A DNA stretch of 64,000 nt from Chloroflexota bacterium. GTDB taxonomy: Bacteria > Chloroflexota > Dehalococcoidia > Tepidiformales > Tepidiformaceae. The stretch is taken from the NCBI GenBank assembly GCA_016234445.1, contig JACRBT010000014.1:186001-250000 (forward strand), in the 5' to 3' direction. Shown here in pieces: positions 31,615 to 34,904 of the stretch. The notes under the pieces were generated by a model that had not been told where the DNA came from, ran no database searches, and was given only the letters and a program-made list of their open reading frames with translations. A program made the translations under genes and the position numbers. Position 1 is the stretch's first letter; each line of letters starts with the position of its first letter.

Positions 31615-32220
31615 TCAGTTGACCTCCAGCACCTGCCAGACCGCGGCCTCCACCTGCCCCGGTGGCAGCGTCGCGTCGACGATCACCCAGTGGCCGTCCT
31701 TCGCCTCCGCCATCAACCGCCGGTAGCCGGCCCACACCCGCCGGTGGAAGTCGAGGCCCTCCGTCCCCGTGCGGATCGCCTCCGTCTCGCCGTGCTTGCG
31801 GGCGAGCCCCAGCGCCGGGTCGATCTCCAGGTAGACCACGAGGTCGGGTTCGAGGCCGCCCGTCGCCGCCCGGTCGGCCGCCCGCAGCGTCGCCAGGTCC
31901 AGCCCCCGGCCGTGTCCCTGGTAGGCGAGCGTGCTTGGGGAAAAGCGGTCGCAGAGGACGATCGCCCCGCGTTCCAGCGCCGGCCGGATGACCTCGTGGA
32001 CGATCTGGGCCCGGGCGGCGAGGAAGGCGAACGCCTCCGCCCAGGGGGTCAGGTGTTCGTGGAGCAGCTCCCGGATCTTCTCGCCCGCCGCGGTGCCGCC
32101 GGGTTCGCGCGTGAGCACGCAGTCGCGCCCGGCCTCGTTCAGCCGACGGGCGATGGCGGCCGCCAGGGTGCTCTTTCCGGAGCCCTCGCCGCCTTCGAAG
32201 ACGATGAATCGTGGCGCCGT
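31615..32220 (-). CDS. tmk: Thymidylate kinase, apparent ACG start
   Basis: Tmk phosphorylates dTMP to dTDP and is normally essential. The P-loop is EGGEGSGKST (about 9-18), followed by LTREPGGT, CDRFSPSTLAYQGHGRGL and the DR-x-Y-type region. No ATG, GTG or TTG precedes the P-loop in frame: the next in-frame codon upstream of interest is the R3H gene's stop. AGGAGG lies 6 nt before an ACG at 32218-32220, at the position where homologues have Met (x-A-P-R-F-I-V-F-E-G-G). I take ACG as the start (201 aa), a normal Tmk length. A GTG at 32118 would remove the P-loop. A sequencing error is the main alternative. Confidence 0.85.
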   Translation of the reverse strand, partial: TAPRFIVFEGGEGSGKSTLAAAIARRLNEAGRDCVLTREPGGTAAGEKIRELLHEHLTPWAEAFAFLAARAQIVHEVIRPALERGAIVLCDRFSPSTLAYQGHGRGLDLATLRAADRAATGGLEPDLVVYLEIDPALGLARKHGETEAIRTGTEGLDFHRRVWAGYRRLMAEAKDGHWVIVDATLPPGQVEAAVWQVLEVN

Positions 32221-32256
32221 GGCCGGCCTCCTTCGCCGCCTGCCGGGTCTGCCGCG

Positions 32257-33972
32257 CTAGGGCACGCCGGGCGGGAACGGGAGGATAGTAACCCGGCGGT
32301 GGGGTTCCTTGCCCGTGCTCGTGCTTTCCAGGTTGAAGCGCCCCGCGATCTGGTGCTGGACGCGCCGCACGTAGCTGTTCGCCGGCGGCAATTCCACGGC
32401 CCGGCCCTTGTCCATCACCTGGGCGATCGCGTCCTCCGTGTCCTTGAACACTTCAGTCATCGGGTCGCGCCGCCCGCCAGCCCGTTCGCCCCCGCGAAAC
32501 TGCAGCAGCACCTGTTCCATCTGGTAGGCCGTGTTCGCCTTCACCACGTAGATCGGGATGTTCCGCTCCTCCGCCTCCCGGACGAGCGCGGGCTTGCGCC
32601 GGTAGTAGGTGCGGAGCGTCACGAGGGCGTCGGCGTTGCGGATGTCCGAAACCAGTTCCACGGGCACGCCCGTGCTCCGCATGGCCTGTTCCAGCCGCGC
32701 CCGGGAAACCCCGAAGGGGCAGAGCTTCACGGCGGTTTCGCCCATGGCCCGGAGCCGCGAAGGCGCCCGGTCCTCGCGCTCGAAGGGCTCGGCGTCGAAT
32801 TCGGGCGGCTGGTAGCTGGCGGCTGGCCCGTGGCCATTGCCGTTGCCGTTGCGCCGGGGGCTCGCCAGCCCGAGTTCGAGCGTCGCCGAGGGGCCGCGCC
32901 GGAGGTTCCGGCCGCTCCGCCCCTCCTCCGCCGGCCGCTCTTCCTTGACGATCTCGATCCGGCCGCCCGGTCCCAGTTGCCGGACTTCCGGCGGCGCCTG
33001 GTAGCCGCGGAGGAGCGCGTCCACCGTCGCCCCGACGTCCGGGTGCAGCGCCACCTTCTGCCAGGACTGGATCTCAACGATCACCTCGAAGGTCGGCGGC
33101 GCCTTCCGTTCGAGGATCGACTTCTGCGTCCCCCGGCGGCGCGCCTCTTCGTCGCCCAGGGTCACCGACTGGATGCCGCCCACCAGGTCCGCCAGGGTCG
33201 GGTTCATCATCAGGTTTTCGAGCGACGTGCCGTGGGCCGTCCCCACCAGCTGGACGCCACGCTCGGCGATAGTCCGGGCCGCCGCCGCTTCGAGTTCGGT
33301 CCCGATCTCGTCGATGACGATGACCTCGGGCATGTGGTTCTCCACCGCCTCGATCATCACCCCGTGCTGCAACGCCGGCGTCGCGACCTGCATCCGCCGC
33401 GCCCCGCCGATCGCCGGGTGGGGGATGTCGCCGTCGCCGCCGATCTCGTTCGAGGTGTCGACGATGATGACGCGCTTGTTGGCGTCGTCGGCGAGCACCC
33501 GCGCCACTTCCCGGAGCATCGTCGTCTTGCCCACGCCCGGCCGCCCGAGGAGGAGGATGCTCTTGCCGCCGCGGACGAGGTCGTCGATGACGCGGATGGT
33601 GCCGTAGACCGCCCGCCCGATCCGGCAGGTGAGGCCCACGATCTTGTCCTTGCGGTTGCGGATGCAGGAAATCCGGTGGAGGGTGCGTTCGATCCCGGCG
33701 CGGTTGTCCAGCCCGAATTCGCCGACGTGGTCGATCACGTACTGGATGTCGTCTTCGGTCACTTCGTCGTGGCTGAGCACCACTTCGCGGCCCGGGTAGC
33801 GCGCTTCCGGGAGCCGCCCAAGGTCCATCACCACTTCGAGCAGCCCGACCCGCCGCTCCGCGTCCTTAAAGACTTCGCAGATGCGAGGGGGGAGGGCTTC
33901 GAGAAGGAGGTCCAGGTCGTCCGTGACGATCTGTTCTCCGGGGATAAGGTCCGGCTGTTGGATATTGCTCAC
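32257..33972 (-). CDS. SpoIIIAA/Ycf45-like AAA ATPase with C-terminal R3H domain
   Basis: This 571-residue protein is of the Ycf45 type. The N-terminal part (about 20-120) precedes a AAA+ ATPase with Walker [10 protein letters not shown], a Walker B-like VIVIDEIGT and an arginine-rich region after it. A low-complexity Gly/Asn/Arg section follows, then a domain around 430-500. The last 60 residues form an R3H domain ([15 protein letters not shown] and HRRVTI), which binds single-stranded nucleic acid. GTG 33972 is the start. The function is unknown, possibly RNA- or DNA-linked. Genes run GNAT-like, this gene, tmk. Confidence 0.9.
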
Positions 33973-33974
33973 GT

Positions 33975-34904
33975 CTACTGCGGCGCCAGCGGCATGTCTG
34001 CCGGCACCGTGGCCACCTCCTTCACCAGGCTCGGGTTCAGCACGGCCATCCGCCGCGCACACACCAGCCGGGTCCCAAGGGCAGTGTACCCCCGCGCCCG
34101 GGCATTGCGTTCGATTTCTCCCTGGAAGCCCTTAATCACCAGCACTCCCCTCGCGTCGAGCTCGCGTTCCACCACGTCCAGGACGGCGCTAGCGGCGCCT
34201 TCGATCCCTTCGTCGACGAGCACGTGCGCCTCGCGGTGGCCGATCCCCGCCCAGCCCGCCAGGCTGCCCGCGCCATCGAGGACGAAGTGCCTCTGGACAT
34301 CGTACGAATCCAGGACAGCGCGCCACTCCTGCTGGACGACCGCCTCCTGGCGCCGGACCGTCTCCGGCACCGCGCGGCAGTAGAGCCGGAAGAGCGCCGC
34401 CCGGTCGCCGCGGACGGCCGGACGGAAGGCACTGCCGGTCCCCCCCGAAGGCGGGTGTGGCAGGGCGTGGAGATGTTCGAAGGAGTAGGCCATGAAGCCG
34501 CCCTGGCGGACGGCGGTCCCGTGGGGCGAACCTTCGGGGTAGCGGAGGAAAACGCTCCGGCCGCCCCGGCGCGCGACTTCGTCCCCGGCCGCGCTGAGGA
34601 GCGCGCGCACGGTGTCGTCGTCTTTTTCTCGCGCGATCCGGAGCGACGCGGCTTCCCAGCAGGCGCCCCCCGAGAGTTCGCGGATGGTCAGCACGCCCCG
34701 GTAGCGCAGTCCCCGCTTCACGCCGAGCACGGCCGTCCGCGAGATCTTCGGCAGGTGCGACAGCCCCGTCGCCGCAAGCCCGGAGGTGAGCAGCAGGCTC
34801 TCTTCGCCGCGCATCGCGATCACTTCCGTGTCCAGCCGCCGCAGCTGCGGCCAGAGCGTCGCCGCGTCGATCGGGCTCAGCGATTCCGCGCGCAACTCAC
34901 TCAT
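33975..34904 (-). CDS. GNAT-like two-domain protein, function unknown
   Basis: This 309-residue protein has two regions resembling acetyltransferase folds. The C-terminal part contains a GNAT-like [15 protein letters not shown] and [16 protein letters not shown]. The N-terminal region has no clear motif. The gene lies 2 nt upstream of the R3H ATPase gene and overlaps pdxT by 8 nt at its start, so it is probably part of a pdxT-GNAT-R3H-tmk transcript. Substrate unknown. Confidence 0.65.

Follow-up and report, generated by a model that had tools for sequence, protein, structure and literature searches.

A putative ACG start codon in a thymidylate kinase gene of a Chloroflexota bacterium, and near-cognate starts in related genomes

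The infC gene of Escherichia coli starts with the codon AUU and is autoregulated by its product, IF3. Near-cognate start codons are also found in Staphylococcus aureus and Bacillus subtilis, e.g. in infC (AUA), ccpN (AUA) and cvfC1 (AUU); the conserved AUA/AUU starts of S. aureus have extended Shine-Dalgarno (SD) sequences and give approximately 10% of the AUG yield, with values up to 30% (PMC13009471). The seven strongest initiators of E. coli include AUC and do not include ACG (PMC12350097). Searches of published papers, whose coverage of the literature is incomplete, yielded no ACG start in a bacterial chromosome.

Thymidylate kinase (Tmk) is an essential enzyme that is needed in modest amounts. 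The sequence analyzed here (termed the window) is a 64,000 nt stretch of the genome of an uncultured Dehalococcoidia bacterium (Chloroflexota), and an open reading frame on its reverse strand displays clear similarities to Tmk: 157.4 bits with NCBIfam TIGR00041 (cut-off 83.25) and 152 bits with Pfam PF02223 (2e-44; cut-off 27). The motifs GGEGSGKST (the P-loop), REPGGT and CDRF...YQG..RG are intact, and all residues that are invariant in 21 homologues from the family are kept. It is the sole thymidylate kinase gene of the genome. A second intact tmk elsewhere had been named in the preliminary description as a finding that would speak against its reading; none was detected with PF02223 in this genome, which is 97% complete. 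The features of the locus are shown in Table 1.

Table 1. Position of tmk, its proposed initiation signals and the upstream gene in the window
Feature	Position	Strand	Remarks
tmk, thymidylate (dTMP) kinase	31615..32220	-	201 codons from ACG, plus TGA stop
Proposed tmk start codon, ACG	32218..32220	-	At the GTG/ATG start position of relatives
First in-frame canonical start of tmk, GTG	32116..32118	-	3′ of the P-loop
Shine-Dalgarno sequence of tmk, AAGGAGG	32227..32233	-	6 nt before ACG; AGGAGG at 32227-32232
TAG stop of the AAA/R3H gene	32257..32259	-	In the tmk frame; 36 nt lie between it and ACG
SpoIIIAA-like ATPase (AAA)/R3H gene	32257..34062	-	TIGR02858, 1e-19; Jag/EloR R3H part, 1.5e-4; both under curated cut-offs

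No ATG, GTG or TTG is present in the tmk frame between the TAG of the upstream R3H gene and the P-loop, as is evident from both the nt sequence and its translation. The TAG is followed by 16 sense codons (CGC GGC AGA CCC GGC AGG CGG CGA AGG AGG CCG GCC ACG GCG CCA CGA) and then by the conserved Phe of FIVFEGGEGSGKST. Twelve of these codons lie between the TAG and the ACG (contig position C1:218218-218220). Reading from this ACG gives ACG GCG CCA CGA TTC ATC GTC TTC GAA GGC, with a predicted N-terminus of MAPRF, i.e. (M)APRFIVFEGGEGSGK, while a start at the first canonical codon, the GTG, gives a 167-residue protein without the P-loop. In a set of 104 tmk genes with a recognizable N-terminus, taken from the family and from named genomes, the window tmk is the only one in which no canonical start is found on reading back to the upstream stop. 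A gene-finder written for the purpose and trained on the 277-kb contig shows that the coding signal of tmk extends to near the proposed ACG; by the coding signal that precedes the first canonical start, tmk ranks first among 236 genes of the contig.

The ACG is preceded by a strong SD with a spacer of 6 nt (ccggcc). Matches longer than its 7 nt are found at just 2 of 219 assigned starts on the contig, and only 0.35% of all ACG triplets there have an AGGAGG 4–10 nt upstream. In the window tmk such an SD precedes a near-cognate codon, which occupies the place of the start codon in homologues. The preliminary description had reported the missing canonical starts, an AGGAGG exactly 6 nt before this ACG, and an ACG at the place where other Tmk proteins have Met; the sequence bears out the first two with the coordinates right, and the GTG and ATG starts of relatives do align with the ACG.

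The combination of AGGAGG, spacer and ACG shows no enrichment over the genome (279 occurrences, against 293 in reversed controls); in 1.07 Mb the ratio is 0.92-fold, compared with 1.41-fold for ATG. Thus ACG is not a routine start in this genome. RNA around the tmk start folds no less than shuffled sequence (z 0.18), and no special structure was found there. A search for an initiator tRNA with a CGU anticodon gave none, the only form with the conserved stem-loop pattern being CAU. A missing IF3 was also considered and rejected, infC being present. The 16S sequence, the 3′ end of which bears the anti-SD, is incomplete in this assembly.

In the other genera of the family, tmk starts with GTG, ATG or TTG, and a canonical start is present in every other family tmk that was compared. 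Many of these starts are four codons upstream of the conserved Phe (VSGRF, MPGKF), and the window ACG has the same spacing (MAPRF). Where the R3H neighbor is recognized in relatives, it mostly overlaps tmk, the shared letters being GTGA or ATGA. The 16 nt before the start were also tabulated for 35 other tmk genes of the family, and in none of them do they contain an SD of at least 5 nt. In the window genome the overlap is absent and there is a 36-nt gap with a 7-nt SD. The junction appears to have been rebuilt, with the overlap swapped for an SD. A second tmk that seemed to lack a start, in G019, was rejected on inspection: an ATG lies 31 codons upstream, and the tandem AATCCCCAATCC-type repeats that precede this gene are read from it as an extension of the N-terminus.

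In a survey of 1.07 Mb of the window genome, two conserved genes besides tmk were found without a canonical start, and both have their near-cognate codon behind a strong SD. One is a short-chain dehydrogenase (G000 C2:315731-316714, minus strand) that has no ATG, GTG or TTG start. Its leader reads AGGAGG CACACC CTG GCA TCG TCC CAA TTC, with CTG 6 nt after AGGAGG, and its closest relative (76% identity) has ATG at the position of the CTG (ATG GCG AAT CAG TTT). The other is the cell-division gene ftsW, described below. Further ACG starts were not found among ~1,300 genes of two genomes. Of the other top matches of the screen, most turned out to be genes with ordinary starts, or else antisense or pseudogene calls. 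Two further loci were assigned to their kinds by eye. A TauE/SafE-like permease (G012 C1:367253-368158, plus strand) lacks a canonical start ahead of its first membrane segment; its candidate start is a CTG that follows GGGAG. A HicA-like open reading frame of 72 codons (G000 C2:59713-59928, minus strand) has no canonical start until codon 42; an ATG nearby in another frame points to a frameshift or to decay of a toxin gene.

The ftsW locus (G000 C2:645748-647121, plus strand) reads GGAGGT GACGCC ATA GCC. The ATA lies behind GGAGG and overlaps the UAG stop of murD as AUAG. Among 38 family genomes this site is ATA in 25, ATG in 12 and neither in one (G001). Four of the 25 ATA genes also have an ATG or GTG 3–11 codons before the conserved PDY motif; the remaining 21 have no nearby alternative. 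Both states occur within one genus, G017 having ATG and G023 ATA (ggaggtggcgccATGA and ggaggtggcgccATAG), and the state changes at least seven times on the ftsW tree, many forks of which are weakly supported. In a control survey of 400 kb from a relative with a single-contig genome, ftsW was again top-ranked. In G001, the ATAG of the junction is AGAG, the murD stop is lost, and neither a usual nor a near-cognate start is present there. Sequencing error is not a credible source of an AUA distributed in this manner. As it is common to 25 of 38 genomes, near-cognate initiation appears to be real, though rare, in the family. By sequence comparison, from which both results come, the conserved AUA of ftsW is firmer and more general than the ACG of tmk.

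That tmk initiates at positions 32218–32220 is very probable from the position, the SD and the presence of a single tmk, and this part of the preliminary description stands. It had left two possibilities for the codon: a genuine weak start, or a wrong base in the assembly. If the true base is T, tmk has an ATG at the same site, and the C came either from an error in the consensus or assembly or from a minority variant in a mixed population. A single substitution separates ACG from ATG, the codon is known from one metagenome-type assembly, all relatives have canonical starts, and the SD and its position suit an ATG equally well. The error rate was approached with the same 1.07 Mb, taken as stretches, and a sample of 912 genes. 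For these genes the ratio of stop-creating to start-destroying single substitutions is 10.3 to 1, and in simulations the screen detects internal stops and lost starts with equal sensitivity (~56% at a threshold of 3.5). About ten internal stops are therefore expected for each lost start, yet among the top 30 matches no ordinary gene has one; the broken genes in the survey are RHS-type genes and the HicA-like open reading frame, i.e. kinds that decay naturally. This disfavors a random base error. In addition, an error is not an option for the ftsW AUA of this lineage, and a weak start would need just such an unusual SD. With ~900 clean genes and other near-cognate starts at hand, a wrong base is less likely than it first seemed, and is considered unlikely though still deserving of some weight.

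Initiation elsewhere has much less in its favor. Translation from another non-canonical codon, e.g. the ATC at 32203–32205, or by read-through of the R3H stop, is improbable. AUC is among the seven best initiators in E. coli (PMC12350097), but the distance from the SD to the ATC is 21 nt, and a start there would remove part of strand beta-1, which precedes the P-loop. The R3H gene and tmk share a frame in the window, with only the 12 sense codons from TAG to ACG between them; about one third of gene pairs would be expected to do so, and in most relatives with a recognized R3H gene the overlap is out of frame. As the shared frame is not usual in relatives and the fusion is unconserved, a read-through product is unlikely. 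There remains the thought that tmk is decaying, or that only the truncated GTG-started open reading frame is made, which is indeed all that a gene caller limited to ATG, GTG and TTG could call. It is scarcely believable for the only copy of an essential enzyme, with the P-loop and all invariant residues intact and a coding signal that reaches near the proposed start.

The reading preferred here is that the ACG is truly in the genome and is used as the tmk start under the direction of the SD, which is probable on the genomic evidence. The strong SD would place the fMet-tRNA (CAU anticodon) on the ACG and would offset the weak codon-anticodon pairing, with C facing A in the middle. In the window lineage, 36 nt separate the end of the R3H gene from the ACG, and tmk may now rely on the SD for its initiation. 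Ribosomes would start at the ACG with a yield that is low but enough. The preliminary description suggested that a weak start possibly serves to keep Tmk low; low Tmk could also be no more than its cost, and the relatives suggest another history, in which the stop-start overlap was lost and a strong SD gained. The identity of the codon as ACG comes from one assembly, the other genera of the family having GTG, ATG or TTG as the tmk start.

Near-cognate starts behind strong SDs (ftsW AUA, dehydrogenase CTG) appear to be tolerated in a few genes of this lineage, and the ACG of tmk may be an extreme example. It is tentatively proposed, with slightly less than even confidence, that this is a family with permissive initiation whose essential genes depend on near-cognate starts behind strong SDs (ftsW AUA across many genera, tmk ACG in one), and that tmk is a natural instance of ACG initiation in an essential bacterial chromosomal gene. 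A real ACG would show to what extent a poor start codon in an essential gene can be compensated by a strong SD. The occurrence of AUA and AUG at one ftsW site within one genus offers a comparative system in which selection for weak starts could be told apart from mere tolerance of them. Gene callers in common use recognize only ATG, GTG and TTG as starts, and thus a gene such as tmk would be truncated past its active site or lost.

The tmk genes of the family encode the same protein as the window tmk and, where seen, have the same operon position. They differ in having a canonical start without a strong SD, often overlapping the upstream stop, whereas the window tmk has a separate site with a strong SD and ACG. 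The E. coli infC gene is similar in that an essential gene has a near-cognate start; unlike the case of infC and IF3, we know of no regulatory link between Tmk and start codon selection. The infC, ccpN and cvfC1 genes of S. aureus and B. subtilis share with tmk a weak codon, an unusually strong SD and the absence of a canonical alternative. Their codons have third-base mismatches, are conserved across species and were measured by ribosome profiling and reporters, whereas the ACG of tmk has a middle-base mismatch and is seen in the sequence of one genome.
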